From the NCBI GenBank assembly GCA_948567375.1, contig OX419755.1:69382944-69446943 (forward strand): a stretch of DNA of 64,000 bases, read 5' to 3'. The stretch comes from Lunularia cruciata. Taxonomy: Eukaryota > Streptophyta > Marchantiopsida > Lunulariales > Lunulariaceae. Below the pieces are notes generated by a model. That model was not told where the DNA came from, ran no database searches, and was given only the letters and a program-made list of their open reading frames with translations. Both the position numbers and the translations under genes were made by a program. Of this stretch, positions 1 through 32,601 are shown piece by piece; the stretch's first letter is position 1, and each line of letters starts with the position of its first letter.

Positions 1-4
1 GGTT

Positions 5-709
5 GTGACTTGTGGTTGTGACTTGGTGGTTTGGGTTTGCTGTTGTGGTTACTTTGTCACGATGGAGTTCTTTGGAGATCCCAGAGGAGTTAGCCCTACA
101 GTACGTAGTGGGTTTACTCGGAGTGGTACTTGGTATCAACCTGTATCTCAGGTCCTAGTGAGGGAGGAGATTGACTCTGAGTTGGAGTTTGACACAAGAG
201 CTTATTCAGTTGAGAGTGCACTTGGTGTGTCCACACCGTTGTTGTGGGACATGGATGAGATTTATGGGGCCTCCAAAGGCCCTAGGCGTTACTCTGGTAC
301 AGTGGGTACCATTGAGTTGGATGACTTCATCCAAGAGTTCAATAGTTGGTGTGATCTGTAGTAGATGCGGAACCCGACTTTGTTCACACCCTTCATGGCA
401 TGGAAGAGCTTGTTTCAACATCTGGAGGGTCTGCCGATGGATGACTATCATGAGTTCAGGAGAGCTCATTTGGAGGAGATCAAGTTATGGAGACAATATT
501 GGTCTCCAAACTATGTCTCTATCACTTCAGGTTCAGTGGCCAGGAGTAGATTGGCTGTACCCACGAGTTCTAGCTCAAGTAGTGTTGGTGGAGCTAGTGG
601 AGGTGCACTAGCTAGAAATAGTGCTACTACGAGTGGAGGTACCGCTGCAGGAGGTGGTGTGGTACCGGGGTTTAACCCCATGGTGGAGTTCTCCCTGTGT
701 TTGAGGTAG
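5..709 (+). pseudogene. Element A gag-like region
   Basis: This is a fossil coding region ahead of the methyltransferase and pol of element A. It gives two long stretches of plausible protein, the second with an aromatic- and charge-rich segment (TPFMAWKSLFQHLEGL near its start) followed by a low-complexity Ser/Gly/Ala tail. Position and composition suit a capsid-type gag protein. No zinc knuckle is visible. The gag assignment rests mainly on position, so it is an inference. The region ends shortly before an inserted family-C LTR fragment. Confidence 0.45.
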
Positions 710-729
710 AATCACTAGGGAGTACGGAC

Positions 730-1145
730 TGTGAGCCGGCTTGTCTCTCACTCAGGATGAACCTCTGATGGCTATTATGGTAGCGCACCATGGACTAAGA
801 AGGCAAGGAACCCGAACTCCATCATACTCCTCCAAGGCTAACACTCCAAGAATTAAGACATTGCTCACTAGAGAACTCAATGAGAGAGAGATAGTTGCAA
901 AATGAAAGGATGATGAGTACCTCCTCACCCCTTGCTTATATACTTGTGAAAAAGTTATAGACCAAAGTTACTAATTACCGTAGTAACTCAAGTTACTAGA
1001 CTAAAAGTCAAGTAAAGTCAAAAAGTAGAAAGGAATATCCATTCACATGGGCATATTCCCCTAAGCATGTGATCTTATCTTGACCCAACCACTAAGTCAA
1101 GGATTCCTTCACATGGGCTATCCTTGGACTAAAGAAGAATCCACA
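730..1145 (-). repeat. Family-C LTR fragment inside element A
   Basis: The sequence starts with TGTGAGCCGG, the inverted end of the family-C LTR, and follows the 679-bp LTRs at 8316 and 14934 closely to about 1140, where similarity stops. It covers about 60% of an LTR. Compared with the young LTRs it carries about 12 extra bases near 1060, as does the older fragment at 57418, so it belongs to an older subfamily. The four bases just before it are GGAC, the same target bases seen at the complete copies. It separates the gag-like region of element A from its methyltransferase domain. Confidence 0.85.
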
Positions 1146-1274
1146 CACTTAGCCTATTGGTATCCGGAGTTATTACCAATGTCAGCAGTCAGAGGTTACC
1201 AAAAGACCCTACCATGAGACATTTCCTTACTGGGGGCGCATGACCTAGAGAGACATGGGCCTATTCACTTGGTG

Positions 1275-1959
1275 ATTTTTGGATGGCCATGTTAGGGACA
1301 TACACGTGATGGTAGAGGATTGGGTCTTCAAGATCCTCATTCTGGTGTGTTTTGGGAGATGGTACGGATACTACAACATCTCCAGGTTCATCAGTCTATT
1401 TCTCCAGCTTACCTTTTGGAGAACGTTCCTTTGATGGGTGATTCTTGCACTAGAGTGGTGGCGAGTACACATCAGGTCCATTCTTGGATGGGACTTGCTG
1501 TATTGTTAGATGCAGCTAGAGTGGGATCACGGGCTCATCGTCTTCGTCTTTGGTGGACGAATCTCTTACCCAGAGAGGTTCTACAACGCGCTTATGATGG
1601 GATTCAACAACTTGACCACATCCTTATTGATGATATCTTGGATGTTGGGTGTCAGTCTCAAACACTGGTAGTGGCTGATAGGTCACCTATGGCAGTGGTG
1701 AACCTAGTTGGACAGCCTAGAGCTGCATTTCCCACACTCATGAGTTTCCCAGGCTTTCATGCTTTTTGAGAAGGAGGACCTGGACTTGTTTGGGACTCAG
1801 TTACAGTAGTTGGTGGAGCCCAACGTTGATGAGAGAGAGCGGGTGATGGGTTTTTGCACCGGTATTACCGCTATTCTAGCAGTGTCAGAGGCATCCAGGC
1901 ATCAAGTGTTAGGTCAGGCTATGGACCTGAACTGTTTGACCTGGATTGTGAGCCTTAGC
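1275..1959 (+). pseudogene. C5-cytosine DNA methyltransferase domain within element A
   Basis: This is a fossil of a SAM-dependent C5-cytosine DNA methyltransferase, the class that methylates cytosine in DNA through a catalytic cysteine. Visible landmarks in family order are a Gly-Trp-Pro-Cys stretch at 1281-1292 matching motif IV (catalytic PC), a DPHSGVFWEMVRIL helix typical of the segment after motif IV, Leu-Glu-Asn-Val at 1416-1427 matching motif VI (ENV), SRAHRLRLWW matching the Arg-rich motif VIII, then ERERVMGF and LGQAMDL matching motifs IX and X. Motifs I-III (SAM-binding FxGxG) are not seen; the sequence upstream is unassigned or replaced by an LTR fragment. It lies between gag-like sequence and RT on the same strand, so it reads as part of the retrotransposon. 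The subfamily (DNMT3/DRM, CMT or bacterial-like) is undetermined. Confidence 0.8.
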
Positions 1960-2073
1960 TTGCCAGAGCAGCGTAGGATGCACTTGATAGGCATCACCAC
2001 TCGGACACTTGTGAGCCCTGTGCCTATCAAGATGATTCAGGCACATGCTAGGGGCGATGGACCGAGTGGACAT

Positions 2074-2163
2074 GGTATTCTTGGGACACATCCAATAGCT
2101 ACTAGGGAGAGCGGTCTACTTGGAGTCCATCCAGGTGAGCGTGGGCTACTTGGATTACACCCT
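2074..2163 (+). repeat. Short protein repeat G(I/L)LGxHP, three units
   Basis: Between the methyltransferase and RT of element A the translation shows GILGTHP, GLLGVHP and GLLGLHP within 30 residues. Such spaced short repeats suggest a flexible linker. A retroviral-type protease would be expected in this interval, but no Asp-Ser/Thr-Gly motif was found. Confidence 0.5.
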
Positions 2164-2329
2164 TGATCCACATGGGATGTAGCTAGAGGACGTGTGGAGC
2201 TTGCAGCCAGAGTGGAAGGAGTTTTTCACACAGAGGTTGGGACCTCTAGTGGTCGGGAGCATGACACTATTGCTCCCAAGGGCCCAGTGTAGCAGCTAGT
2301 CAGTACGTCTTCCACTCTTACTATAGTTA

Positions 2330-5294
2330 CAGAGGATACCTGGGAGCCAAATCTTGGACCCAAGCTTACTAGAGAGGAAAGACAGAGGGTTTGGAGGTTC
2401 TTGAGGAGCCACACGAGTTGTTTCGCCTTCAATATGAAGGCTTTGGGTGCTCTAAAGGGACTTGGTATACGGATTGAGCTGACTAGCGACACACCAGTTT
2501 TCCGACATCCTTATCGATATAGTGATATGGAGAGGACATTGATTTAGAGCCGGAGTACTGACCTTTTTGAGGCTGGTTTGGTGGAGATTTCACATGGAGA
2601 GTATGCATTAGCGATGCCAGCCAAGAAGGATATGCATGGCAACTATACATACAGTGATGCCATCCAAGAAGGATATGCATTGCAACTATACAGATAGGCG
2701 GATGTGTGGAGATTACCGTCCTATCAACCAACAAACCAGGGCTGATAGGTATGCCATGCCTACACCGGAGGAGATTTTTGATGCGATTGGGCATGCAAAG
2801 ATCTTTAGTACTTTGGATCTTGGAGCGGGATATCATCAATTGCCGATCAAGGAGGAGGATAAGCCCAAGATAACATTTTAGGCTATTGATCCTCACGGCA
2901 AGGATGTGTTATATTAGTGGAGGTTCTTACCATTTGGGTTAAAGAATGCTCTTGCTGAGTTCCAGAGGGTCATGGATAGGATCCTAGCTGGATTGGATTT
3001 TGCTCAGTGCTATATTGATGACAATTTGGTTTATAGCACTACTGTGGAGGAGCATGATAGTTGTTGGAGGTGTTTGAGAGGTTGAGATCTCATGGACTCA
3101 AATTACATCTTGGGAAGTGTAGGTTCTTCTACGAGCAAGATGAGTATTTGGGTCACACTATCTACCTCGGAGGACTTGGTGTTCAGCAGACCAAGGTGGA
3201 GGCTATTGCACGTATTCCTTGACCTACGGATGTGAGCAGAGTGCGAGCATTCCTTGGGTTGGCAAACTTCTATTGCCGTTATGTTAGAGGATTTAGTGCC
3301 ATTGCCAAGGCCTTGACGAAGCTGACCAAGCTTACACATGAGTGGTGTTGGGGAGATGAGGATGAGAGAGCTTTTGTAGAGCTCAAGGAGAGGTTGACAT
3401 CTACTCCTATTTTGAGGAGACCGATCAGGGGACAACCATTTCAAGTTCATACTGATTGGAGTATGTTGGGGCTTGGAGTGGTGCTCACCCAGCATGATGA
3501 TGAGAAGGAGTTTGTGGTAGCCTATGCTAGTCGCTCCAACAATTCAGCGGAGGCAAAGTATAGTTCATATGAGGGAGAGTGCTTGGCAACAGTTTGGGTA
3601 GTAGCACATTTCCGATGTTACCTATTTGGTAACCCCTTCACTCTCATCATTGATCATCAGCCGCTGAAGTGGTTGATGGAGTCCGACAAGCTTTTAGGGA
3701 AGCTTGCACAATGGGCTCTAATTTTATAGGAGTATGATTTCATGGTTGTTCACAGACCCGGAGTGGTGAACCGTGATGCAGATGGGTTGAGTAGAAACCC
3801 ATGTCCCAACCAGTAGGATCAGACCGGAGCACGTTGGCATGGTGAGACAGATGAGGAGATGGTGCCAGGTTGGCATGCATTGGCCTTTCTATGTATATTT
3901 GCAGAGGCTTTGGTGGTATCTCTCTTAGCGCATACAAGAGGAGTTATTGAGGTCACAGATCCAAAGAGTGAAGATATTAGTACAGTTTAGCGAGACATTC
4001 ATGATGATGTCTTAGTGATGGACTATCTTTGCACTGGTGTTGTGGGTGGCATAGTTGGGGCCAAGGAGAGAGACCGTGTTCTTCAACAAGCCAAACGGTT
4101 CAGATTTGAAGGTAGACACTTTTTGCGTGTATGGGAGGATGGTAGAGTGCGACTAGTACCACTTCCATCATAGAGACCACAGTTCGTCCGTCATGCTCAT
4201 GAGCAGCTAGGACATTTTGGAGTAAAGCGTACATATAGCTTACTCCAGAGTCATTATTGGTGGTGCGGTATGCAGACCGAGGTACAACAGTTTGTTGCAA
4301 GATGTGTGGTTTGTGACCAAGTTAGAGCATCATTCAATGCTCCTATGCCACAGTTACACCCATTACCTATCATGGGATTGGGTTACCGTTGGAGTTTGGA
4401 CTTTGCCGGACCTTTACCACTGATTGTGAGACATCATCAGTACATTTTGGTGATGGTGGAGCACTTCTCCAAGTGGATTGAGTTGGTGGCACTTCCTGAC
4501 AAGTGTAGTGAAGGGACAACTTACTTGTTCTTGGATCGAGTTCTTAGTCATTTTGGTGCACCAACTAAGGTTTTGACTGATCATGGTATAGAGTTCTTAG
4601 GGGAGTTTCAGGTCTTGTGTGACAAGGCTTTGATTGATCATCGTACTACATCCCAAGATCACCCTAAGGTAGATGGCTTAGCAGAGAGAGTGGTTTAGAC
4701 GGTGAAGAGAGGATTGCAAAAGTATGGTTTGCAGAGAGGCCACTTGGGAGATTGGATCTCCAATTACTTTGGTTGGCCATGGGCTATCGGTTCAGCCGGC
4801 AAGCCTCCTTAGCATCCTTCTCTCCATACTTTCTACTCTATGGACAAGATCCAGATTTACCTTCAGCTATTCATCAAGATGCTACTATAGTTTTGGACTT
4901 GGATGACCCCGATGTATGGATGAGCGCATGTTCTCAGCGGGTAGAGATCTTTTGGAGAGTGATGCTGATGGCCTTTGAGAACTTGGTGATTGCTCAACAT
5001 AGAGATACTTTACGCTATGCTACCATTCGAGGAAGAGGTTATAGACCTTTGATCCGTTGATTTCATCCAGGCGATTATGTATATCTATAGCAGACAGCAC
5101 CAACGACACTTGATGTTTCTACAGGCCGCACTATCTTGAGAGTGCGTGAGGTTTTGCCATCTGGAGTCCTTGTGTTAGAAGGACGTGATGGTGTTGTTTG
5201 GAAGGATCATGTGCGCAATTGTGCGCCATGCCACCTCCCAAACATTGATGGTACTATGGACCCAAGCTTGGCACTTGTACGTGCATGCTTGAGG
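2330..5294 (+). pseudogene. Element A pol: reverse transcriptase, RNase H, integrase
   Basis: This is fossil pol of Ty3/gypsy type. RT is recognised from MCGDYRPINQQT and FSTLDLGAGYHQLPI (about 2700-2850) and a YIDD catalytic box near 3010. RNase H (about 3410-3790) shows the HTDWS, YASRSNNSAEAKYSSYEGE and DHQPLKWL blocks. Integrase shows the His/Cys zinc-binding segment around 4190-4320 (CVVCDQV), then a core with WSLDFAGPLP, VLTDHGIEFLG and DGLAERV at about 4390-4690. The C-terminal part continues to about 5060 and then into a domain carrying a PHD finger. It is broken at several points. I am sure of the Ty3/gypsy type from domain order and motifs. Confidence 0.9.
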
Positions 5295-5434
5295 TGTATG
5301 TTATGTGGCTCTTCTGGTGGAGCTTCTACTATGTTAGTGTGTGATAGCTGTTCAAGAGGATGTCATATGGCATGTATGACTCCTCCCCTCACGGTGGTTC
5401 CTCAAGGACAATGGTTATGTCCTAGATGTACTTG
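5136..5434 (+). pseudogene. PHD finger at the C-terminal end of element A pol
   Basis: The 99-residue reading frame contains a canonical C4HC3 PHD zinc finger: Cys54, Cys57, Cys69, Cys72, His77, Cys80, Cys95, Cys98, with the usual Trp two residues before the last Cys pair (QWLCPRC). PHD fingers usually bind histone H3 N-terminal tails according to Lys4 methylation. The residues before it (VREVLPSGVLVLEGRDG) look like the tail of an integrase C-terminal domain, so the finger sits where chromoviruses carry a chromodomain. A targeting role in integration is an inference from that position. It ends just before the polypurine tract and LTR. Confidence 0.85.
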
Positions 5435-5590
5435 ACCTATAGCTAGTTCATTCTTTATATGGTATAGATTGCAGACAGGCAACCAACGATGGGGCTCCAT
5501 AGCACCCGGCCTTTTGATCTTTGCCCATTAGAGAGTATACCATATACTTAGAGTAGATGGCTATTTGGAGTTAGAGAGACCTAACCGCCA

Positions 5591-5604
5591 GCTAGGGGGG
5601 CGAT
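5591..5604 (+). promoter_or_regulatory. Polypurine tract of element A
   Basis: A run of six G residues in GCTAGGGGGGCGAT lies immediately before the LTR start TGTGGCACC. This is the expected place and composition for the plus-strand primer of an LTR retrotransposon. Confidence 0.65.
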
Positions 5605-6107
5605 TGTGGCACCTTAGAGTCTATGTATGACTTATGTGTGAGTTGTGCTTCTATAGTGTATGATGTTGACAGTGATGTATGTTGTGTAGCAATGTATATA
5701 TGCACGATAGCTGTCATGCCATTTGTAGTTCCACATCTAGATGCTCAGACACTAAAGTTCTAGTGATTGTAGTTAGAGTTATTTCAGCAGTTTCTCAGAG
5801 ACTACTTTCTGCAGTCAGATTTTGTGTTTGGGGTACTAACTTCATGGTGGGGCTCACTGTCACTTTGCACCGTTTGCACCATCGAGTGTGCCATCAGCAA
5901 GACCGTTAGGGTTTCAGAGCTAGCTCGAGTCCAGGGGGTATAGTTTCAAAGTGAGCTCCAGAGAGCTCACTTCTCTGATGTTGAGCCTTCGAGTTCTTGG
6001 CTATGGTGGACAGAGGCCGACGAATGTCACATGGATTCTCTATGCTTGAGTGGGTGTGGCTTGATTGTAATTAGTGCCTAGTTGTTGGCAATTTATAGAG
6101 TGACAGA
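5605..6107 (+). repeat. Element A 3' LTR, first part
   Basis: It begins TGTGGCACC directly after the purine tract. The first 110 bp recur at 17162 with few differences, which supports the LTR start. The LTR is interrupted at 6107 by unit F, which is flanked by ACAGA on both sides, and it resumes at 17104. Confidence 0.75.
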
Positions 6108-6753
6108 TGTGGTACCCACATTTTTTGTTTTTTATGGTTAGTAGGGTTTAAGAGACAAAGTAAGCACGGAAAAGTCAAATTGTGGACAAAGAAGAGGCAA
6201 AAGTAACTTCGGAGGCAAGCCAAAGAAGCTGACATTGGATCCGATGATGGAGGTACTTGGAAGAGGAGTACACCGGAAACAGGCCAAAGATCATTGTCTT
6301 TAGGTTGAAAAATGTAGGAATGATGAAGACCGTTTAACAACCTCTGTACGTGGCAAGAAAGTACATTTCAAGAAATGGCGGGGGCAGAAGAAGCATGTCT
6401 TGACAGTGACCAAGAGTGCACGCAGAAGAGAGAAATTCACAGACTAAATCGACTGAAGAATGATTGTGATTTGGGGCAATATAAAATTGCAACTGCGCAG
6501 GGGGAAGTTGAATTCGGTGAGTAAATTTCCAATTCCTTTGAGTAGTCATCCTGCAAGAATGCGTGTTCGGAAGCCCGTCAAGAGTGAAATTTTCCAAAAC
6601 CCTGAAGGAGTTAGAGTGTCTCGTCCAAGAGAGGGGCTGATCTTCCAACAGCGTAGAACGAGAGAACAAATCATGGCAAAGAAGGTGGCCAATGCGCTGG
6701 CAGTGAGAGGTTTTGCAATTTGAGGAGTAGATGTAGTAGCTAGGATCAAAGTC

Positions 6754-7805
6754 TTGGTTAGACTTCATATCACCTTTTTAGCATGGAATTGGAATTTCAG
6801 TTTCCCAGGAGTGATGGCAGAGATCACTGCCAGTAATTGTGAAGAGGCAAAGAAGAGAGGCAATCCGGCTCGATGGACTGAGTTGGATTGGAAGTTAGTC
6901 CTGGGGAGAGAAGCAGGAGAGCCAATAGGGATCACCTTTTATCGGAAGTGTGATGCTGCAGAGGAGACGGTGGAGATTTGCAATTCGTTTCTCGCTCCGA
7001 GAACTACAAATGGTTACAAGGTGGAATCTTATCGGGACCCGATCCAAAGAAGTATCATGGGGGCGATGATGGCCATGTTCAAGTCGGAGCGAACAACGTA
7101 CGTAACCATGCAACAGGCAGTCTTCTTCCATCAGATGTTTGCAGGAGTACCCCCGTGAATTGGGCAAAGTGTTTCCATCACCAAACAAGGCAGATGGTGG
7201 TGAATTGGAGAACGGGCTTGCCACCGCATTATTTCACACCGTTTGCGGCTCATTTCTACTTCGGGCTGAACTTATTGTCCAAAGACGAGCGTCATTGTAT
7301 GGTCTCACACATGCACCCCGATTTGAGGCGGGAAGCAGATGAAGAGGAGCGACAGTATATGCTTCATCTACAAGAAAATGACAAAAACTTTGCAAGGACG
7401 GGACAGTGGAAGATCAAAGATGTTGCCAGTCCAAAGACAAAGAAGCAAAGTAAACCCAAAGAAGCCAAATCATCACCCATCCCACGCAAGACTCGGAGGC
7501 TGCTGTTGAAGACTGCTAAAATTATAAGAGGGGCATCATTGGAGTCGGAGTCTGATGAAGCAACTGAGTCGCAAGAAGAAGACTCGGAAGAAGAAGAGCT
7601 CACCTTGAAAAGTGAGGAGTATGGGAGCGACAGTGAAGGTGAACCCAAAGTTCTGCAATCTGTGGTGGTAAGTGAGGCTGGTGAGGCAATGATGGAGAAC
7701 AAGCCAAAACCCAAAGCAAAGAAGGAGTATCCCGCGGGGCCGAGTTCAAGAGGCCAAGACGAAGATAGTGTCAACACTATGAAGATACAAAGATCGCAAC
7801 TTTGA
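6754..7805 (+). pseudogene. Unit F coding region, N-terminal and acidic part (unrecognised)
   Basis: I do not recognise this protein. Two overlapping long reading frames give a globular-looking N-terminal part rich in Trp, His and Phe (for example NWRTGLPPHYFTPFAAHFYF), then a Lys/Pro-rich segment and a very acidic stretch with ESEEDSEEEEL-like composition near 7540-7640. The order globular, basic-acidic linker, coiled coil continues into the next segment. It resembles the accessory proteins of large plant retroelements only in general architecture. No catalytic motif, zinc finger or transmembrane segment is visible. Confidence 0.4.
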
Positions 7806-7952
7806 ATGAAGGAGCCGATGACGCGGGAGAAGACTCCAAACGAAGGTGGCGATGAAGAAGAAAATTTTGGCGGGATAACATATTTGACAAGGGTGGTCAC
7901 ACCTTTGCTCGAGCTATTGAAAGAACATCGTATGGGAATTGCCCAAGATTGA

Positions 7953-8315
7953 GTGAAAGGGATGAATGAGCTGAAAGTGGTGAAGCATCTGTTGAAGGAA
8001 GTGCAGGAGTTGCAGGAGCATCAAATCCAAAGAAGTGCGGAAATTGAAGATCTTTGGAGGGAGGAAGACTTGAGGAAGAAAATGCTGAGCGTGCTACAAG
8101 GGAGTTGCGCAGAGAAGGAGAAAGACCTGCAAAAGCAAGCCGGAGAGTTGAAGGAGCAGGCAATGTGGCTCAGCAAGATGCAAGAGGAAGTGAGTAATGT
8201 GCACGTCAAGAATGTTCATCTGAAGGCGATGACCATCGTGATGGAGCAAGAGTTGGACAGCTTGAAGAAGAGTGCCACAGCAAAAGATCAAGCATGGCAA
8301 AGGGAATTGGCGTCC
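7953..8315 (+). pseudogene. Unit F coiled-coil segment, first part
   Basis: The translation is rich in Glu, Lys, Leu and Gln with heptad-like spacing (LLKEVQELQEHQIQRSAEIE), typical of a long coiled coil. Element C1 is inserted here, and coiled-coil sequence resumes on its far side at 15613. Function is unknown; coiled coils usually serve oligomerisation. Confidence 0.5.
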
Positions 8316-8994
8316 TGTGAGCCGGCCTGTCTCTCACTCAGGATGAACCTCTGATGGCTATTATGGTAGCGCACCATGGACTAAGAAGGCAAGGAACCCC
8401 AACTCCATCATACTCCTCCAAGGCTAACACTCCAAGACTCAAGACATTGCTCACTAGAGAACTCAATGAGAGAGAGATAGTTGCAAATGAAAGGATGATG
8501 AGTACCTCCTCACCCCTTGTTTATATACTTGTGAAATAGTTACGTACCAAAGTTACTAATTACCGTAGTAACTCAAGTTACTAGACTAAAAGTCAAGTAA
8601 AGTCAAAAAGTAGAAAGGAATATCCATTCATATGGGCATATTCCCCTTATCTTGACCCAACCACTAAAGCAAGGATTCCTTCACATGGGGTATCCTTGGA
8701 CTAAAGAAGAATCCAAAACAAAAAGGCTTGCGGGCCCAAGAGTTCTCAACTCTTTCCCCAAAGCCAAACACCTAGGAATAATACCAAGTCAACACACTAA
8801 AATCCAAAATAGTGGTGCTCATCTTTTCTACTTCCTCTAAAGTAAGGTCCCATCTATCTTAGCTATGACTAACTTTAGCTAACCATGACTAATATAGAAC
8901 CATCCTTTATCTCTATATAAATAATATCTCTTAAGTACTTGTAATACCAAGCTAAATATCACAATACCACACACATGCACAAATGGGTGTTACA
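8316..8994 (-). repeat. C1 3' LTR
   Basis: It is a 679-bp terminal repeat with TG...CA ends, 677 of 679 positions identical to the copy at 14934-15612. It is the 3' LTR because the element reads on the - strand and the purine tract (read here as TTTACCCCCGGACT) lies just inside it at 8995. Confidence 0.95.
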
Positions 8995-9042
8995 TTTACC
9001 CCCGGACTAAGTTTTCACTTTGTCCTCAAAGTGAAGGTCTCT

Positions 9043-12000
9043 CTACCTTCTATGGTACCTCTTCAACTTATCATGGTTAATCCTATCAAAGTATCTTCCT
9101 CCCAACTCCTTGAGATCATAGATGTAATTGCCCCACACCTTCTCCACTATGAAAGGTCCAAAGTACTTAGGCAAAAACTTCTTTTGCACTCTCTTGAATC
9201 GAATGGAATCAAACAACATTACCCAATCACCTTCTTTGAAAGGCTCCACCTTCTTCTTGTCTTGCCTCTTATCATAGCTCTCCTTTTGTTTCCTTTGGGC
9301 TTGCTCCACTCGAACCATAGCAACTGCTCTTGCCTCTTCCAACTCCATGAGTTGATCCTTCCTTGACTTCTCTGCATCACCTCCTTGTGCTTTCTTCAAT
9401 CTCCTATGACTGCTTTGGAAGGTAGGAAGATCAAAGTGAATAGGTAAGGTAGACTCAATACCATACACCAATTGAAATGGAGAATATCCAGTGGAAGTTT
9501 TCATGGTTGTCCTATACTCCCACAAAACTGCATGAATCCTCTTGTCCCAATGATGTTTAGCCCCCTCCATTTCTGCATCTTTGGCCAACATCATGCACAA
9601 GGTCTGATTGGTTCTCTCTGCCAAGCCATTGGAATTTGGCTTATAGGATGTAGTTACTCTATGTGTGATAAAGAAATGTCGTAGCATGGCTGTAGTAATG
9701 CTTCCTGTAAACTCTCCTCCTCTATCAGAAACCAACTCCAAAGGGCATCCAAACCTAGTGATAATGCGTTCATAAAGAAATCTACCCACTTCATCTTCAT
9801 TCTTGTCCCTCAATGGTCTAGCCTCAACCCACTTGGTAAGGTAATCAGTAACTACCACAATGTACCGATTGTTCCTTGGGGTTCTATTGAGAGGACCTAC
9901 AAAATCAATTCCCCACTTCTCAAAAGGTCCTAGCAATGGAATTGATCTAAGTGGTGGAGTGGATGTAGACTTTCTAGCAAAAGCTTGACAAACATGACAA
10001 GTTTTGCAATAATCAAGACAATCCTTGAAAATCCCTCTCCAATGGTAACCTGCATCTAGAATCTTGAAAGCAATCACCTTTCTTGCAAAGTGTCCTCCAC
10101 ATACTAAACCTTCATGAAACTCCTTTATGAGTAGGATAGACTCTTCCTTACCCACTGCTCTTCGAAGTAGACCATCTGCTCCTTGGTGAAAAAGAATATC
10201 CTCCACCATTGTGTAAGGTCTAGATCTTGCTGCAAGGGCCTTCCTCTCCCTAGCATGCATCCCTTCTGGATAGTTACCTTTTGTCACAAAATCCAAAATC
10301 TCCTTGTACTCCATTGGAACCTCTTGAGTGACTGAGATTGTCATGAGCTCCTCATCCGGGAAGGAATCATCCACTGGCTCATCTCCATGATGATCATAGG
10401 CTCTAGATAATAAATCAGCATTTGCATGTTTCTTTCCTGGCCTATCTTCAATGGTGTAGTCATACTCAGACAAGAGTATCATCCACCTTGCTAGTCTCCC
10501 TTCAACATTAGGCTTGTTGAAGATGTACTTCAAAGCCTTGTGATCCGTGACAATGGTGGCTTTCCCTCCAATCAAGTAGTGTCTAAACTTCTTGAGACCA
10601 AAGATCACTGCCAACCCTTCTCTCTCCGTGACAGAGTAGTTCTTCTCTGCTGAAACCATCTGCCTACTAGCATAAGCTATTGGATGATCATGCCCATCTT
10701 GGTCTAATTGACTAAGAGTGCATCCTATAGCTACATTAGAAGCATCAGTGTAGAGGATGAAAGGTTTACTCCAATCAGGTTTAGCAAGAATTGGAGCTAC
10801 AACAAGGGATTGCTTGAGCTCCTCAAAAGCTTTGAGAGCCTCCTTGTCTTCCAAAATCACCATGTAATCTACACCCTTCTTCATGTAGATGGTCAATGCA
10901 TAAGCCTTGTTAGAAAATGAGAAGATGAACCTCCTATAGTACCCAACCATCCCCAAGAATTGGCGTAACTTTGTCAAGCTTGAAGGGAATGGAAGGTCTG
11001 AGATTTTCCTCACCTTCTCAGGATCAACTGCTATTCCATCCTTGGAGATGATATGCCCCAAAAGTAGACCTTTTTCACATCCAAAAATGCACTTCTCTGG
11101 GTTGAGTGATGCATTTGCCTCATCCAAGCATTGCAAGACTTTGATTAGGTGCTCAAAGTGCTCCTCCTTGCTTCCATAGACACAAAAGTCATCAATGAAA
11201 TCTCTCACAAATTTCCCAATGAAAGGTTCAAATACCTTGTTCATGAACCATTGGAATGTGGCTGGAGCATTGCAAAGCCCAAAAGGCATGACCTTGAAAG
11301 CCTAAGTTCCCCAAGGTGTGGTGAATGTGGTGAGTTGTTGATGCTCTGGTGCAATCTTGATTTGGTTATATCCACTATAACCATCTCCAAAACTGTACCT
11401 CTCATGACCTGCAACCTCCTCCAAGATCTCATCAATGAATGGCAATGGGTAGTAGTCCTTCTTGGTAACAGCATTGAGCTTCTTGTAATCCACACATACT
11501 CGAAGCTTGCCATTCTTTTTCTTCACAATGACAATTGGAGACACCCATTCTGAATTCTCCACCTCAAAGATAAATCCAGCCTCCTTGAGCTTATCAATCT
11601 CCTCCTTCACAACCAAAGATATTGGTGGGCTAATACGACGTTGCTTTTGGCGGATTGGTCTTGCATGTGACTCCACCTCTATCTTGTGCTCCTCCAAGGT
11701 GACTTCCTTCAAATCCTTGTAACTAAAAGCAAACACATGGATGAACTTGCGGAAAATCTCCTCAAATCTCACCTTCTCCTCCTTGGTAACATTTGGGCCA
11801 TACTTAAGGGTAGCTAACCTTCTCTCTACCTCCTCAAGTGTCAATGGTGATTTATCTGGGTCCTTCAAAACCTCTGGCTTAGGTGCAAAATCCATAGCAC
11901 ACAAAGGATACACATCTGAATCAGATTCAGATTCATCCTCCTCCGTGGAAGTCTCCTCTTCCATGCTTGTGTCCACACCTAAAGCTCCTGCTTCAGAATC

Positions 12001-12240
12001 TGATTCCCAATAATCAGAAGATGGTGTATCTAAATGTGAAGTGTTGGTGGTGTTAGTCACAGGAACAGTGACTCTATGGTTTGATGGCCCAATCCTCAAG
12101 TACCCTTTGTGCCATCGATCAGTTGTGCGTGCTGCTCTCAACCATGGCCTCCCAAGAAGTAAGTCCCAACTTCTTCCTTGGAGTCTTTGTTGTTGATGGT
12201 GTTGAGGTGCGAGTGCTCCTAGTAGACATAGGAGTATCCT
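9043..12240 (-). pseudogene. C1 pol
   Basis: This is fossil pol with RT, RNase H and integrase, nearly identical in content to C2 pol. Landmarks are MPFGLCNAPATF and FIDDF for RT, ILYTDASN and YASRQMVSAEKNYSVTERE for RNase H, and WGIDFVGPLN, LVSDRGGEF and NGLAERTNQ for integrase. The C-terminus ends without a chromodomain, as in C2. The protease portion seen in C2 is not apparent. It is broken at a few points. Confidence 0.9.
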
Positions 12241-13377
12241 TGCTTGAAGTAAATCCTTGAGAAGAGTGGACATCCTTTGCAAAACGAGCTCTCTTCTTCT
12301 CTTGTGCCAAAAGCTCCAAATTAAGACCCTTGGAGTTTGAGCACTCTCCCTTCTCATACTTGCTCTCAACCACATCTATGGATGCTATCTCCTTACCTTT
12401 GTTGGGATTAGGAGCCACTTGGGTTTCACTACCTTCCTCTTTCCCTCTATTGGCTCCCTCATAACCCCTTCCTCCATGGTAAGTGGAATTTGGGCAATTC
12501 CTTTGGATATGCCTCTTCCTCCACAACCAAAACAATTTCTATCATTGAAATTGTTGGCTGGTTGGCCTCCTCTATATGGATAGTTTCCATAACTCCTAGG
12601 CCCTCTCCCTACATTCTGATCCACCTCTCTCTTCTCCCATAGTTGCACCACATTGATCTTGAGATCCGCAAGTTGTTCTGTGATGGTTTGGAGTGGATCT
12701 TTTGGTGGAGGTGCAAGAACTGAAGCAACTACTACTTGTGGTGCAACCCTTGTCACCAAAGTATCAGAAGTTCCACCATACTTGTAGCCTTGAGGAGGAT
12801 GCACAACCTCCTTCACCACCAAATCACTCTCATCTCCTTCCAAACTCTCCTCCATACGAATTGCGATCTTGATAGCTTCAACCTTGGAAGAAGGTTTCTC
12901 ATATCTCACCTTGCTTCCAATTTGTGGTCTCAAACCTCCCACAAAATTCTTGGTGAGCATGGCCCCTATGCCAATCATTGTAGTCTCCACATCATCCCCA
13001 CCCTTCCTCAACACTATGCGAAATCTGGACTCCAACTTTTCCACTCTTTCCACATAGACCCTCACTTTCTCTCCATCTCCTTGCTTGAGAAATGTAACCT
13101 CACTCATCAATCTCTCATAACTCTCATCAGGAAGAAAGTTCTCAATGAGTGCTGAAGTCAAAGTCTCCCAAGACTCCTCTTCCCCATCTCTCCTCTCTCT
13201 CTTTTGGTATTCTGACTCATACCATGTAAGTGCTGCATCCTCAAAGAAATCTGGTAATAATGAGGCCCACTCATTCTTCCTCCTCTCATTGTTTCCTATG
13301 CAAGCTCTCTTGAAGTCTCTCACAAAGGCCTCCACATCTTCTCCATCCTTGCCAAAGAAAACCGGAAGTTTCCCCAT
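12119..13377 (-). pseudogene. C1 gag
   Basis: This is fossil gag of family C. It begins MGKLPVFFGKDGEDVEAF and has the retrotransposon gag core (FFEDAALTWYESEYQKRERR) in the first 150 residues. A CCHC zinc-knuckle region and a basic, Ser/Thr-rich tail follow. It matches C2 gag over its length except for a small number of breaks. Confidence 0.9.
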
Positions 13378-13599
13378 CTTAACCCCTCACTATCTTTCTT
13401 TTCTCTCAATTTTTTTTCCTCTCACTCTATTACTAATAGAGTATATACATGACTAACACCATCTGAGAATAATCCACTCTAGGGAACACAAAAGGTTCAG
13501 GTTGCTCCAAGATTTCTATAGCAACATCAAATCCTAGAGTGCATATTAATCTAACTCTCATGGATAGTTTATCCATAAGTTGAAAGATTATCTCCATCA

Positions 13600-14097
13600 C
13601 TAATCTTGAGAACTAGCTGATGAAGGTGGTAGTATTTCTGTAGCTGTATTAAGACTCTCTCCAAGATCCTTCACCAAAGTTTCCAAAACTGCTTTTACTC
13701 CACTACACTCATGTCCTTTTGGAAGTCCTTCAACTCCACAAACCTCACACAACTCCTTGGTCTTAGATCTTCTCCCTCCCAATCTTGGTGAAGAAGGTCC
13801 AACATGCAAACCCAAGTCAAGTAAGCCTCTCCTTTCCCTCAATCTCTTGCTCTCAAAGGTCAATGGACATGAACTTGCCTTATGTCCCTTCTCTCCACAT
13901 AGAAAGCACTTAGACTCACTCTTTCCTCCAAGTGGTGTAGGTTTTTGGATCCTCTCAACACTCTCTTCAAATTCTATTGTAAACTCTCTTTTCCTCAAAT
14001 CCACCTCTACAATCACCTCAAACCCTTGGGGAACCTTGCATAATCTCAATTTCCACTCTTGATGACTCTCCATGTTCCCCAAGATGAATCTAAACAC
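13600..14097 (-). CDS. C1 extra zinc-knuckle reading frame upstream of gag
   Basis: This is a 165-residue reading frame lying ahead of gag on the same strand. It contains a CCHC knuckle, CFLCGEKGHKASSC, and a second Cys/His cluster CEVCGVEGLPKGHEC. The same frame occurs in C2 and, eroded, in C3. It is separate from gag, which has its own knuckle. The role is unknown; a nucleic-acid-binding accessory protein is the natural inference. Confidence 0.6.
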   Translation of the reverse strand: MFRFILGNMESHQEWKLRLCKVPQGFEVIVEVDLRKREFTIEFEESVERIQKPTPLGGKSESKCFLCGEKGHKASSCPLTFESKRLRERRGLLDLGLHVGPSSPRLGGRRSKTKELCEVCGVEGLPKGHECSGVKAVLETLVKDLGESLNTATEILPPSSASSQD

Positions 14098-14721
14098 TCA
14101 AACATGCTTTTTGTTGATCTCAAACTTCTCATGCATGAGATCTCCACTCTGCAGAATTGACACTTCCTCACAATGTCACTCAAATATCCCAACCAATATG
14201 TCACAGTCCTCTGAAATTTTTCACACTTGATCACAACTCCAAGGCATCCCTCCGTGCAAAATTTCAGATCTTTTCATCAAGCCATTTGGCCTAGACACCT
14301 TTCTATTCAGCACCCATATTTCAGATTTGGTCTGAAAACCACCCCCCTCACTTCAAAAACTCATAACGCCCTGCGCAAAAACGATCTCTCTCTAATTTGT
14401 GTGGCATCAGGTAGGATACAATGCACTGAATGTTCTTGGAAAGTTTCAAGACAATTCACTAAAAATGGAAGAAATGGCAGACTCTGTACAATTTTCCAGA
14501 GAGCATGCAGTTGCGGGAGCACTTTACCCTATCAACTTTCAAAAATTCTAGCCCAGTGCGCATAGAAGCTGTCTCAATAATTTCAAGTGTGCTAACTGAA
14601 AGATAATCCAAGCTATCATGTGTAGAAATCTCAAGTCCAGATCTCAAACTTGAGATTTTGCCCAAAATCACCTTAACCCCCAAAATCTGCAATCCACCTC
14701 ACACAATCTCTCCAATTCCTC

Positions 14722-14892
14722 TCATGTGTACAAGATGTACAAAATCACCTCAAAGACATCATAATGAACTACAAGGTATACAAATGGATCTTGGTTCTCT
14801 AACATAAGTTCAGCCCTCTCCTCTCCTAATGTTCTCTCCAAGTGAGCTCTCATAGCCTCCTTTTGCCTAATGTAGAATTGGACGCGGAACAT
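14722..14892 (-). CDS. C1 leader reading frame
   Basis: This is a short reading frame just inside the 5' LTR and primer site, starting MFRVQFYIRQKEAMRAHLER. It is almost identical in C2. Its pattern (F-x-V/I near the start, a central G-x-E, then P and YD, ending YIL) recurs in the leaders of elements E and, more loosely, D. The product is unknown. Confidence 0.45.
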   Translation of the reverse strand: MFRVQFYIRQKEAMRAHLERTLGEERAELMLENQDPFVYLVVHYDVFEVILYILYT

Positions 14893-14911
14893 TATCTTGC
14901 CTTCTAGAGAG

Positions 14912-14929
14912 GTCCCGGCAACGGAACCA
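14912..14929 (-). promoter_or_regulatory. C1 primer binding site, tRNA-Glu type
   Basis: Read on the - strand, TGGTTCCGTTGCCGGGAC lies four bases inside the 5' LTR. From memory it is an 18-base match to the complement of the 3' end of plant tRNA-Glu(CUC) including CCA. It marks the start of minus-strand DNA synthesis. Confidence 0.75.
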
Positions 14930-14933
14930 AAAA

Positions 14934-15612
14934 TGTGAGCCGGCCTGTCTCTCACTCAGGATGAACCTCAGATGGCTATTATGGTAGCGCACCATGGACT
15001 AAGAAGGCAAGGAACCCCAACTCCATCATACTCCTCCAAGGCTAACACTCCAAGACTCAAGACATTGCTCACTAGAGAACTCAATGAGAGAGAGATAGTT
15101 GCAAATGAAAGGATGATGAGTACCTCCTCACCCCTTGTTTATATACTTGTGAAATAGTTACGTACCAAAGTTACTAATTACCGTAGTAACTCAAGTTACT
15201 AGACTAAAAGTCAAGTAAAGTCAAAAAGTAGAAAGGAATATCCATTCATATGGGCATATTCCCCTTATCTTGACCCAACCACTAAAGCAAGGATTCCTTC
15301 ACATGGGGTATCCTTGGACTAAAGAAGAATCCAAAACAAAAAGGCTTGCGGGCCCAAGAGTTCTCAACTCTTTCCCCAAAGCCAAACACCTAGGAATAAT
15401 ACCAAGTCAACACACTAAAATCCAAAATAGTGGTGCTCATCTTTTCTACTTCCTCTAAAGTAAGGTCCCATCTATCTTAGCTATGACTAACTTTAGCTAA
15501 CCATGACTAATATAGAACCATCCTTTATCTCTATATAAATAATATCTCTTAAGTACTTGTAATACCAAGCTAAATATCACAATACCACACACATGCATAA
15601 ATGGGTGTTACA
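14934..15612 (-). repeat. C1 5' LTR
   Basis: It is a 679-bp terminal repeat with TG...CA ends. It is followed on the + strand by GTCC, which is also found immediately before 8316. In element orientation it holds a TATA box, TATATAAAC. Confidence 0.95.
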
Positions 15613-16297
15613 GTCCAGGCAAGAAGAAGAAGAGCGTTTGCAAGAACTTGTCAAGAGTGCGGAGCAGCAGAAAATGCAATATGCAAAGGAGAAGAAGATG
15701 CTTGCTACAGAATACAAAGACGAGTTGTAGATGTATCGGGAGGAGTTGAAGGTGGAGCGTTCTCAAGGATACGCATCGGAATCAGTAGGGGACATTGCGA
15801 GGAAATTACAAGCAATCTTAAGCACGGAGGCTGAAGGGAGATTGGAAGAAGCTTGTCTGCATGAGTTGAAGTTACTTGTGCAAGAGACTCAGAAGCCAAG
15901 AGCCAAGGACGTGGATATGAATACCTTGCTAATTTGGTTGAGAGAACGTGTAGATAGAAAAATGTTGGAGGTATAAAATAATGTTAGTCTTAGGCTAGAT
16001 TTAGTCAATTCAGAGTTAGAGAAAATTTGGAATAGTGTGACAGCGGAGAAGAGACCCGATGTTGCAGATGTAGAAACTCAAGTGTCATCGGACTTGCTAA
16101 TTGACACATTAGAGAAGAGTGGGTCAGGAGATAAAGCAGTAGATGGAGTAACCCGGAGCTCAGTTGAAGATTGTAGTGAAGAAGTTGTAGAATTAGTAAA
16201 GAAATTAGTAGAATCAGTCATACCCAAAGAAGGTGAAATAGCAAGAAGATCATTGGGTTTGGAAGTTGATGATGAGGTAGACATCGGATCGGGATAG
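15613..16297 (+). pseudogene. Unit F coiled-coil segment, second part, and C-terminal tail
   Basis: Immediately after C1 the same Glu/Lys/Gln-rich character returns (EEERLQELVKSAEQQKMQYA in one frame) and runs to about 15976. It is followed by an acidic tail to 16297 (VVELVKKLVESVIPKEGE). Together with 7953-8315 it shows that C1 landed inside a coiled-coil coding stretch. The protein family is not recognised. Confidence 0.45.
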
Positions 16298-17098
16298 AAG
16301 TCACTTTTGAGATAGGAAGAGTCAGATATGAAACGATAGACTGTCACTTGGGATTTGTAAGTAGGAAAAGATGCTAGGAAGAGGTGTTTAGGTAGGCAAG
16401 TCTGCCGTTTGCTTCAGTATTTAAGGGAAGCATTCGCAGTCTTATGTTATTCAGTATTCATATTTCTGAAGATAGATAAAGTGAAGTGTTGTTCTTAGTA
16501 CTCGTCGCTTAAGCTTAATTCTGATTGTCAATTTTGTGTTTGTATTTGTGAGTGTGTGGAGAATTCTGAAGAGCAAGTCAGTGTGTCTATGGATGTGGGA
16601 ATCTATAGCCTTGATCTTCATTCTGTGTGTTTGATCTTGAGTGAAGTGCATCGGAGCAATGCCTTGACAGGTCTAAGAGGAATTGTAGTGTTTTTAGTAT
16701 TTTGCATTTGTGAGTGCAGTACGAAGTTGATGTGAAGCAATTTTGATCGAGGAAGTTGTGCCTTCAGTGGAGTTTAGTGGAACACAATTCTGAGGCAAAA
16801 TTGGTCTTCATAGTGAAGTGCCGTCTTCGAGAGAATCTGAATCATCACAATCAAGAGTTGTTTGGACAAAATTGACTATGTTGTGATTATGTATGTGTAT
16901 TCATGACAAGTTGTCAAGATTGTGAGCTTGTTACTCTCTTTTGGGTGTAGTTTCTACCTGAGAGATTAAAGAAGCCATCAAGAAGAACTGCAATTGTGAC
17001 TTTTGACTTCGTATTTGACCAATTCTGGGTAGGATCTCTATGGGAACAAACTTTACTTACCTGATTACCGCAAAAGTGATATTTGCCGGGTTGTCACA
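16298..17098 (+). other. Unit F 3' region, promoter- or LTR-like, non-coding
   Basis: No long reading frame is found. A TATA-like CAGTATTTAAGGGAAGC lies near 16413, and the unit ends with ...GGGTTGTCACA against the target repeat. The composition (T/G-rich, many short TG-rich words) resembles the downstream half of an LTR. I found no second copy of it in the window, so calling it an LTR remains a guess. Confidence 0.35.
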
Positions 17099-17103
17099 AC
17101 AGA

Positions 17104-17161
17104 TCAAGTACTAATCTGAGTTGAGTTGAGTTGAGTTGAGAGTGGTAAGCAATCTGATTAT
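17104..17161 (+). repeat. Element A LTR, remaining part, with a TTGAG microsatellite
   Basis: After the second ACAGA repeat of unit F the interrupted LTR of element A should continue. The sequence includes four to five tandem TTGAG units at about 17118-17140. It ends where a new copy of the same LTR's start begins at 17162. Assignment to A rests on the target duplication. Confidence 0.45.
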
Positions 17162-17266
17162 TGTGGCACTTTAGAGTGTATGTATGGCTTATGTGTGAGT
17201 TGTGCTTCTATAGTGTATGATGTTGACAGCAATGTATGTTGTGTAGCAATGTATATACGCACGACA
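17162..17266 (+). repeat. Second A-family LTR start, truncated
   Basis: About 105 bp starting TGTGGCACTTTAGAG match the start of the element A LTR at 5605 with around seven differences, then similarity ends abruptly. It lies head to tail after the end of the first LTR and is cut off by the start of element B sequence. Confidence 0.75.
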
Positions 17267-25474: not shown

Positions 25475-26153
25475 TGTAACACCCATTTGTGCATGTGTGT
25501 GGTATTGTGATATTTAGCTTGGTATTACAAGTACTTAAGAGATATTATTTATATAGAGATAAAGGATGGTTCTATATTAGTCATGGTTAGCTAAAGTTAG
25601 TCATAGCTAAGATAGATGGGACCTTACTTTAGAGGAAGTAGAAAAGATGAGCACCACTATTTTGGATTTTAGTGTGTTGACTTGGTATTATTCCTAGGTG
25701 TTTGGCTTTGGGGAAAGAGTTGAGAACTCTTGGGCCCGCAAGCCTTTTTGTTTTGGATTCTTCTTTAGTCCAAGGATAGCCCATGTGAAGGAATCCTTGC
25801 TTTAGTGGTTGGGTCAAGATAAGGGGAATATGCCCATGTGAATGGATATTCCTTTCTACTTTTTGACTTTACTTGACTTTTAGTCTAGTAACTTGAGTTA
25901 CTACGGTAATTAGTAACTTTGGTACGTAACTATTTCACAAGTATATAAACAAGGAGTGAGGAGGTACTCATCATCCTTTCATTTGCAACTATCTCTCTCT
26001 CATTGAGTTCTCTAGTGAGCAATGTCTTGAGTCTTGGAGTGTTAGCCTTGGAGGAGTATGATGGAGTTGGGGTTCCTTGCCTTCTTAGTCCATGGTGCGC
26101 TACCATAATAGCCATCAGAGGTTCATCCTGAGTGAGAGACAGGCCGGCTCACA
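25475..26153 (+). repeat. C2 5' LTR
   Basis: It is a 679-bp terminal repeat from TGTAACACCC to GGCTCACA, identical to 32615-33293. It is preceded by GGAC at 25471-25474. Confidence 0.97.
25942..25949 (+). promoter_or_regulatory. TATA box in C2 5' LTR
   Basis: TATATAAA lies about 470 bp into the LTR, followed by an AC-rich and TC-rich stretch where transcripts of such elements usually start. The same box is present in every complete family-C LTR of the window. Confidence 0.6.
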
Positions 26154-26157
26154 TTTT

Positions 26158-26175
26158 TGGTTCCGTTACCGGGAC
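26158..26175 (+). promoter_or_regulatory. C2 primer binding site, tRNA-Glu type
   Basis: TGGTTCCGTTACCGGGAC begins four bases after the 5' LTR. It matches the site of C1 at 17 of 18 positions and the complement of the 3' end of tRNA-Glu as I recall it. Confidence 0.7.
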
Positions 26176-26194
26176 CTCTCTAGAAGGCAAGATA

Positions 26195-26365
26195 ATGTTC
26201 CGCGTCCAATTCTACATTAGGCAGAAGGAGGCTATGAGAGCTCACTTGGAGAGAACATTAGGAGAGGAGAGGGCTGAACTTATGTTAGAGAACCAAGATC
26301 CATTTGTATACCATGTAGTTCATTATGATGTCTTTGAGGTGATTTTGTACATCTTGTACACATGA
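26195..26365 (+). CDS. C2 leader reading frame
   Basis: This is a short frame right after the primer site, starting MFRVQFYIRQKEAMRAHLER and ending at VILYILYT. The start is the first Met after the primer site; an upstream Met in the same frame lies in the LTR. The same frame is conserved in C1, and a similar pattern is found in the leader of E (45571-45792) and D (39599-39802). No known domain is recognised. Confidence 0.45.
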   Translation: MFRVQFYIRQKEAMRAHLERTLGEERAELMLENQDPFVYHVVHYDVFEVILYILYT

Positions 26366-26989
26366 GAGGAATTGGAGAGATTGTGTGAGGTGGATTGCAG
26401 ATTTTGGGGATTAAGGTGATTTTGGGCAAAATCTCAAGTTTGAGATCTGGACTTGAGATTTCTACACATGATAGCTTTGGTTATCTTTCAGTTAGCACAC
26501 TTGAAATTATTGAGAGAGCTTCTATGCGCACTGGGCTAGAATTTTTGAAAGTTGATAGGGTAAAGTGCTCCCGCAACTGCATGCTCTCTGGAAAATTGTA
26601 CAGAGTCTGCAATTTCTTCAATTTTTAGTGAATTGTCCTGAAAATTTCCAAGAAAATTCAGTGCATTGTATCCTACCTGGTGCCACAAAAATTAGAGAGA
26701 GATCATTTTTGCGCAGTACGTTATGAGTTTTTGAAGTGAGGGGGGTGGTTTTCAGACCAAATCTGAAATATGGGTGCTGAATAGAAAGGTGTCTAGGCCA
26801 AATGGCTCGATGAAAAGATCTAAAATTTTGCAGGGAGGGACGCCCTAGAGTTGTGATCAAGTGTGGAAAATTTCAGAGGACTGTGATATATTCGTTGGGA
26901 GATTTGAGTGACATTGTGAGGAAGGGTCAATTCTGCAGAGTGGAGATCTCATGCATGAGAAGTTTGAGATCGACAAAAAGCATGTTTGA
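26366..26989 (+). other. C2 leader, non-coding or undetermined
   Basis: Sequence between the leader frame and the CCHC frame is conserved in C1 (- strand) and C3. One 77-codon frame (26395-26628) is shared by all three copies, but the conservation is at the DNA level because the copies are young, so coding is not shown. Packaging signals normally lie in this part of the leader. Confidence 0.4.
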
Positions 26990-27487
26990 GTGTTTAGATT
27001 CATCTTTGGGAACATGGAGGGTCATCAAGAGTGGAAATTGAGATTATGCAAGGTTCCCCAAGGGTTTGAGGTGATTGTAGGGGTGGATTTGAGGAAAAGA
27101 GAGTTTACAATAGAATTTGAAGAGAGTGTTGAGAGGATCCAAAAACCTACACCACTTGGAGGAAAGAGTGAGTCTAAGTGCTTTCTATGTGGAGAGAAGG
27201 GACATAAGGCAAGTTCATGTCCATTGACCTTTGAGAGCAAGAGATTGAGGGAAAGGAGAGGCTTACTTGACTTGGGTTTGCATGTTGGACCTTCTTCACC
27301 AAGATTGGGAGGGAGAAGATCTAAGACCAAGGAGTTGTGTGAGGTTTGTGGAGTTGAAGGACTTCCAAAGGGACATGAGTGTAGTGGAGTAAAAGCACTT
27401 TTGGAAACTTTGGTGAAGGATCTTGGAGAGAGTCTTAGTACAGCTACAGAAATACTACCACCTTCATCAGCTAGTTCTCAAGATTAG
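26990..27487 (+). CDS. C2 extra zinc-knuckle protein upstream of gag
   Basis: This is a 165-residue frame. A CCHC knuckle, CFLCGEKGHKASSC, spans residues 64-77 (Cys64, Cys67, His72, Cys77). A second cluster, CEVCGVEGLPKGHEC, spans residues 117-131. The middle is Lys/Arg-rich (RLRERRGLL) and the C-terminus is Ser-rich. It lies about 230 bp before gag on the same strand. Gag has its own knuckle, so this is an additional protein. Plant LINE ORF1 and some host proteins carry similar CCHC motifs; whether it was captured from such a source is open. The frame may use a later Met. Confidence 0.6.
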   Translation: MFRFIFGNMEGHQEWKLRLCKVPQGFEVIVGVDLRKREFTIEFEESVERIQKPTPLGGKSESKCFLCGEKGHKASSCPLTFESKRLRERRGLLDLGLHVGPSSPRLGGRRSKTKELCEVCGVEGLPKGHECSGVKALLETLVKDLGESLSTATEILPPSSASSQD

Positions 27488-27721
27488 TGATGGAGATAAT
27501 CTTTCAACTTATGGATAAACTATCCATGAGAGTTAGATTAATATGCACTCTAGGATTTGATGTTGCTATAGAAATCTTGGAGCAACCTGAACCTTTTGTG
27601 TTCCCTAGAGTGGATTATTCTCAGATGGTGTTAGTCATGTATATACTCTATTAGTAATAGAGTGAGAGAAAAGAAAAGAGAAAAAAAAATTAAGAGAAAA
27701 GAAAGATAGTGAGGGGTTAAG

Positions 27722-29116: not shown

Positions 29117-29122
29117 GTATCA

Positions 29123-32566: not shown

Positions 32567-32601
32567 AGAGACCTTCACTTTGAGGACAAAGTGAAAACTT
32601 A

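Follow-up and report, generated by a model that had tools for sequence, protein, structure and literature searches.

Does a retrotransposon of a land plant carry its own cytosine DNA methyltransferase, or does a fragment of a host methyltransferase lie beside an old gypsy element by chance? The question is raised by a stretch of 64,000 nucleotides from the liverwort Lunularia cruciata, referred to here as the window, which covers positions 69382944-69446943 of contig OX419755.1 (C1) in the 565.8-Mb host assembly. A first-pass annotation, made from the letters of the window, claimed that a C5-cytosine methyltransferase (C5-MTase) had been captured there by a Ty3/gypsy element, called element A in this study. 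The locus in the window belongs to a Ty3/gypsy-type family in which a DNMT3-type C5-MTase lies between the protease and the reverse transcriptase (RT), with a PHD finger after the integrase; this copy of it is dead and nested. The claim of capture was borne out by a profile match and by the same domain order in other copies in the host genome.

The methyltransferase and the family that carries it

The C5-MTase motifs of the window were all found on the + strand and in family order, as had been claimed. Motif IV (FGWPC) is directly followed by a stop codon, motif VI (LLENV) and a motif VIII-like block (SRAHRLRLWW) come after it, and ERERVMGF and LGQAMDL lie one frame over from these, behind a frameshift. 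The domain had been placed at 1275-1959; a DNMT-like stretch is present there, but its extent is slightly wider, 1144-1950. The separate pieces of the DNMT open reading frame (ORF) had no match in Pfam. When the pieces were joined with X, the profile search that had been proposed as a check gave a match to the DNA methylase family PF00145 that scored 22.8 bits where 22 is the cut-off (E 7.1e-5). Of PDB, 40 sequences were listed at E<=10, and every one of the top 29 was DNMT3A, 3B or 3C (lowest E 1.5e-6). The DNMT piece also returned 32 proteins in a protein search (best E about 1e-98), including one from Marchantia polymorpha with 64% identity over 100%, one from Calypogeia fissa with 63% identity over 100%, and one from Sphagnum fallax with 51% over 87%.

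Intact relatives gave the same picture. The best 29 of 55 PDB sequences for the intact Marchantia DNMT domain were DNMT3, and for a relative of 472 aa whose structure was predicted (pLDDT 72.7), the 50 Foldseek matches listed were all DNMT3 entries. Motifs I, IV (PC), VI (ENV), VIII and IX-X occur in order in the family. By PDB sequence and Foldseek comparison, the family enzyme is closest to DNMT3 when set against DNMT1, DNMT2, DRM and bacterial enzymes. A recent bacterial source was considered and rejected. The sixteen matches of a bacterial search consisted of five loci that match most of the domain, the contig L015 described below, and ten partial matches; the five loci are only 23-25% identical, and DNMT3 sequences were best in PDB.

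The window copy itself has lost a good part of the element. Its stretches 1-731 and 1144-6108 are 91-93% identical to positions ~1340-2070 and 4430-9368 of the host copies (three are shown), and its N-terminal part of gag has 56.9% protein identity to residues 1-154 of a Marchantia protein (P0002). Between these stretches lies a long terminal repeat (LTR) fragment of another family, gypsyB, whose flanks correspond to positions 2068 and 4430 of the host copies. The part of element A lost there, about 2.36 kb, comprised the CCHC zinc knuckles of gag, the protease, and the N-terminus of the DNMT with motif I. The aligned coding blocks of the window copy contain 23 in-frame stops, including the junction stop at 2290, and 14 of the 23 stand at codons that are Gln, Arg or Trp in relatives, a pattern that decay of methylated cytosines would tend to give. 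Since motif I is deleted and the rest has stops and a frameshift, the window copy is unable to make the enzyme.

The state of the family was judged from other copies in the host genome. In searches of the assembly, 123 matches were scored for PF00145, probably with some host genes among them, and 150 for the PHD piece. As scores were given to the best candidates only, these numbers are matches rather than copy counts, and the two lists partly overlap in copies and include some host genes; the first-look candidates, 9046 for the PHD piece and 2161 for PF00145, are likewise not counts of copies. Two sets of copies were examined. The 24 copies L035-L058 were picked by their DNMT match and so are unable to test for absence of the DNMT, while the 20 copies L059-L078 were picked by their PHD match in order to test this. 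The order DNMT-RT-RNase H-integrase-PHD was found in 20/20 DNMT-picked copies, with the protease as well in 18 and gag as well in 17, which agrees with the claimed position of the DNMT between a gag-like region and RT. The proposed check for other copies with DNMT before RT was also answered by the PHD-picked set, where more than 200 of the 329 DNMT residues are present in 18/20 copies, one copy (L066) has a piece of 110 residues, and one has none where it was expected. The presence of the DNMT in nearly all PHD-picked copies indicates that the DNMT is a regular component of the family. DNMT matches are surrounded by open frames of up to 1428 aa (2/123 rows), and PHD matches by open frames of 1037-1043 aa (12/150 rows). 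L039 and L041 each lie within a further copy of the family and show 4-bp duplications.

These results bear directly on the possibility of a chance neighbourhood. The rearranged and broken state of the window copy would fit such an origin, but the layout of the host copies (20/20 DNMT-picked and 18/20 PHD-picked, with one more partial) refutes it, and the same layout recurs in liverwort and Sphagnum proteins and in L015. It was therefore rejected, with a probability close to nil. Contamination, with an alga or a microbe of the sample as the source of the element, finds a point in its favor in the filing of the relative L015 under a cyanobacterial metagenome-assembled genome (MAG). However, the scored matches lie on all eight contigs of 60-85 Mb that were named by the two host searches, and other elements are nested together with the window copy, so this explanation is extremely improbable.

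The features of element A and of the insertions that interrupt it in the window are collected in Table 1.

Table 1. Parts of element A and interrupting insertions, in window coordinates
Feature	Coordinates	Strand	Basis or remark
Element A leader and N-terminal part of gag (broken gag pieces 62-709)	1..731	+	91-92% DNA identity to three host copies
LTR fragment of gypsyB (other family, LTR 679 bp)	729..1143	+	93-94% identity to LTRs 8316-8994, 14934-15612, 25475-26153, 32615-33293
DNMT3-type methyltransferase remnant	1144..1950	+	Without motif I; stops and one frameshift; motifs, PF00145, PDB and protein matches
In-frame stop UAG CAG CUA between DNMT tail and RT	2290..2298	+	CAR-YYA read-through context
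Reverse transcriptase region, broken	2305..3055	+	Part of RVT_1, under its cut-off
RT end and RNase H	3232..3729	+	PF17917 2.1e-31, PF17919 3e-31
Integrase core (rve)	4270..4698	+	PF00665 3.6e-11
Integrase C-terminal part	4752..5290	+	Contains two stops
PHD finger at integrase C-terminus	5295..5429	+	PF00628 1.1e-11, above curated cut-off; PDB PHD fingers
Terminal repeat unit B, first copy	5603..5707	+	Host copy comparison
Terminal repeat unit A, 3' copy, interrupted by nested insertion	5708..6107	+	Host copy comparison
Nested insertion TGTG...CACA, 11 kb	6108..17098		5-bp repeat ACAGA on both sides; contains gypsyB 8316-15612
Element A 3' terminus: rest of unit A and second unit B, ending GCACGACA	17099..17266	+	Host copy comparison

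Element ends, relatives and known systems

The ends of the element set it apart from an ordinary Ty3/gypsy element. In 14/14 copies examined, the 5' end is a 448-bp unit A (beginning TGTCACGCC) with no unit B found ahead of it. The 3' end of the host copies is B-A-B, with a unit B of about 108 bp and the same final letters as in the window (for example, positions 8862-9526 of L053, ending GCACGACA). The plan is thus one of split direct repeats, A-coding-B-A-B, with the termini TGTC...GACA. Identity between the 5' and 3' unit A of a copy ranges from 91.4% to 99.8% (n=14), with a median of 97.5%. An exact 4-bp target duplication flanks 10 of the 13 copies with both ends, and L043, L050 and L054 have none; in L048, the fourteenth copy, the 3' end was not found. 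In the window copy, unit A is cut at 6107 and the true end of element A is at 17266. The order protease-RT-RNase H-integrase with an rve integrase is that of Ty3/gypsy elements, whereas identical long terminal repeats at both ends are missing and split repeats, a character of DIRS elements, are present. The repeat plan is therefore DIRS-like, and the integrase and target duplication are like those of LTR elements. A tyrosine-recombinase (DIRS) element was rejected on the basis of the rve integrase and the 4-bp duplications, though no search was aimed at a tyrosine recombinase elsewhere in the copies.

The closest relatives that carry an organism name are in liverworts and Sphagnum, and others are in Klebsormidium and Volvox. 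Two arrangements were distinguished. In A1, gag-protease-DNMT stands before RT; it is found in liverworts, Sphagnum, L015 and the host family. In A2, the order is RT-RNase H-DNMT-integrase-PHD, and a Volvox reticuliferus fragment showing DNMT-integrase-PHD is included. A quick DNMT tree of 72 rows needs one change of arrangement label (support 90) and places the window with liverworts, Sphagnum and other rows in a group of 15 (support 100); bacterial rows were set as its outgroup, so bacterial origin was not tested by that tree. A more careful DNMT tree of 43 rows has a window clade of 16 rows, supported 100/100. A quick integrase-PHD tree of 118 rows needs three changes and groups the window with Marchantia and Sphagnum (6 rows, support 99), inside a wider clade of 43-45 rows (support 97-98) that contains no A2 row. 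The labels of the integrase-PHD tree are of unequal weight: in three rows (P0071, P0072 and P0089) one protein contains both domains, with the DNMT ahead of RT, 28 further A1 labels rest on RNase H being directly followed by the integrase, with the DNMT itself not seen, and 56 rows have no arrangement label. The wider clade includes K. nitens P0090, an integrase-PHD protein that shows no DNMT itself, as well as Calypogeia P0091 and L015. Four rows with A1-type labels (P0071, P0072, P0136 and P0139) fall outside it, which suggests that the position of the DNMT perhaps changed more than once or that some elements are without a DNMT.

Some further observations were made on the relatives. L015 (CADCWO010000201.1) is a 9.3-kb contig with a eukaryotic-type retroelement and a 127-bp end overlap, and its filing under a cyanobacterial MAG is most likely contamination. 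P0079 is a 1083-aa RT-RNase H-integrase-PHD ORF with a TRINITY name from the source eukprot, which suggests that a eukaryote of some kind transcribes this relative. After the PHD finger, P0056 (from ~1724) and P0072 (from ~1883) have a tail like an adenine-type methyltransferase (DPW.G.G ... SPW), and a putative tail of this type is also present in P0071, P0108, P0109, P0124 and P0177; PF02086 matched the tail of P0056 weakly (E 0.013, under the cut-off) and did not match that of P0072. The five polyproteins scanned with Pfam had no match to DUF3444, PWWP or ADD, and a scan of viral_contigs gave 14 weak relatives.

Among known systems, the nearest is KnitGypsy-Dnmt3 of K. nitens, which passages of de Mendoza et al. 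2018 (PMC5890265) describe as having a Gypsy domain set with a Dnmt3-type DNMT in the polyprotein and repeats as in DIRS elements, drawn as A-coding-B-A-B. In addition, K. nitens P0090 falls inside the same integrase clade as the window. KnitGypsy-Dnmt3 differs in being reported from a charophyte, as an acquisition of the K. nitens lineage (PMC5890265, in the part consulted), and the two DNMTs were compared by description only. The host family, in contrast, has land-plant relatives, a PHD finger, the UAG-CARYYA junction and 4-bp duplications; in the accessible main text of PMC5890265, neither PHD fingers nor liverworts appear. KnitGypsy-Dnmt3 probably has land-plant kin, contrary to a statement of 2019 that land plants have no such elements. 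SymbioDIRS-Dnmt3 of Symbiodinium, as portrayed in PMC5890265, also combines a Dnmt3 with split direct repeats in a retrotransposon and has an enzyme active on CG in yeast, but it uses a tyrosine recombinase rather than the DDE integrase found here and its host is distant. The DNMT3 enzymes of plants and animals (Yaari et al. 2019, PMC6453930, as excerpted; DNMT3A/B structures) share the motif order, the fold and the closest sequence, whereas the family enzyme is part of a retroelement polyprotein. Within the titles, abstract openings and passages of the open-licence literature, no DNMT-bearing retrotransposon of a land plant and no DNMT-PHD combination was found.

A putative read-through junction, selection and possible function

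The junction between the DNMT and RT suggests how much enzyme the element might make. TAG CAG occurs at the same site before RT in 24/24 DNMT-picked copies, and in 23/24 this TAG is in the frame of RT (not in L058); in 20/24 the frame of RT is also that of the best DNMT match. The full CAR YYA after the TAG is kept in 22/24 copies, while L042 and L044 are without its last part, and TAGCAGCCA is present in 19/20 PHD-picked copies. In the window, the TAG CAG CTA at 2290 is the only TAGCARYYA on the + strand. L015, a more distant relative, has two ORFs, of 1355 and 1047 aa, that lie in the same frame with a single UAG between them, in the sequence TAG CAA TCA. UAG CAR YYA is the context described as essential for the read-through of tobacco mosaic virus in the portion of PMC2754532 consulted. 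From this we infer that gag-protease-DNMT would be the main product and RT-RNase H-integrase-PHD a minor read-through extension.

Selection on the DNMT was assessed with 42 host copies, which are the 44 copies L035-L078 minus L066, which is too short, and L078, which showed no DNMT. In 42/42 copies, the catalytic Cys and Glu and the Asp of motif X are invariant, and in the set of L015 and the retrieved proteins the catalytic Cys is present in 64 of the 65 rows with a residue at this position. The median ratio of nonsynonymous to synonymous substitution (Ka/Ks) is 0.38 for the DNMT (77 pairs with Ks >0.1), 0.27 for RT and 0.08 for gag. As these pairs share copies and include decay after insertion, a transversion-only nonsynonymous to synonymous (N/S) ratio was added, whose pairs share copies too; for the DNMT it is 0.36 in all pairs of the 42 copies and 0.30 in the 17 copies with at most one stop. 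These ratios point to purifying selection that kept the DNMT protein functional until the copies died and that was less strong than the selection on gag.

The PHD finger may make contact with chromatin. Its nearest PDB sequences include the fingers of CHD4, KMT2, DPF3, KDM5 and UHRF1. Several PHD fingers of these types bind histone H3 with unmethylated K4. Chromoviruses are gypsy elements that have a chromodomain, a chromatin reader, after the integrase. A chromatin reader in this place is thus common to both; here it is a PHD finger rather than a chromodomain, and a DNMT is added.

The best explanation, which is given about an even chance of being right, is that a DNMT made under read-through control methylates the DNA of the element itself while the PHD finger guides the integrase. 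With the UAG in its CAR-YYA context, most ribosomes would stop after gag-protease-DNMT and few would continue into RT-RNase H-integrase-PHD. The methyltransferase would in this way be made in Gag-like amounts and be located in the particle, at the site of cDNA synthesis, where it would most likely methylate its own cDNA or fresh insertions. The PHD finger would help the integrase to select chromatin by the state of histone H3, its putative ligand. Self-methylation by the element is plausible, and it could either disguise the cDNA as self-like or damp the element to a level tolerated by the host. A broader and more tentative proposal is that an old lineage of green-plant gypsy elements might be a reader-writer, in which a read-through DNMT would act on the element's own DNA, the PHD finger would pick chromatin, and a DDE integrase would insert DNA with DIRS-like split repeats; land plants may have kept this lineage and let it multiply.

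Four observations weigh against this explanation. One PHD-picked copy, L078, has no DNMT at the expected distance. Decay is common, with one to five stops in the DNMT of 35/42 host copies and none in that of the other 7/42. The family has a median ratio of observed to expected CpG of 0.47 (20 copies; 0.39-0.50), compared with 0.11-0.15 for gypsyB, 0.33 for the chromovirus of the window and 0.21 for window 34000-57000. Self-methylation should deplete CG, and the family is less depleted than the other elements of the window; however, CpG loss depends also on age and on silencing by the host, which makes the CpG test weak in both directions. Lastly, KnitGypsy-Dnmt3 was inactive in yeast, a result that its authors considered inconclusive since human DNMT3B was inactive too (PMC5890265, relevant passage).

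Two of these observations lend themselves to other readings. The CpG values would also fit a DNMT with targets other than the element, such as host DNA or chromatin near its targets, competing elements, or RNA, in which case self-methylation would not be the selected function. An enzyme made with Gag could to a large extent act away from the cDNA. On the other hand, its position on the Gag side of the polyprotein would put the DNMT beside the cDNA, and in yeast, two DNMT3s from dinoflagellate retrotransposons methylate CG without further sequence preference (PMC5890265). This alternative is rather unlikely. The inactivity of KnitGypsy-Dnmt3 in yeast would likewise fit a DNMT domain retained for a structural or nucleic-acid-binding role in the particle, with catalysis secondary. 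The catalytic Cys and Glu and the motif X Asp, conserved in all of the host copies compared and nearly so elsewhere, argue against such a role and make it improbable.

In plants, DNA methylation serves to silence transposons. An element with its own de novo methyltransferase would turn this silencing weapon into a part of its life cycle. Elements of this kind occur repeatedly in a single genome of large chromosomes, and also in Marchantia, a laboratory model, so that their function is directly testable, and the read-through site, the PHD finger and the end structure offer defined handles for functional tests.

Other elements in the window

Scans of the window for tRNA and Rfam matches found nothing, and the nested insertion at 6108-17098 showed no end repeats in a self-comparison of the window, despite its TGTG...CACA ends and 5-bp duplication. 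Copies of gypsyB are present at 8316-15612, 25475-33293 and 57896-64000, with an LTR of 679 bp and 95-98% likeness; the copy at 25475-33293 has its gag and pol in a common frame, separated by a TGA.
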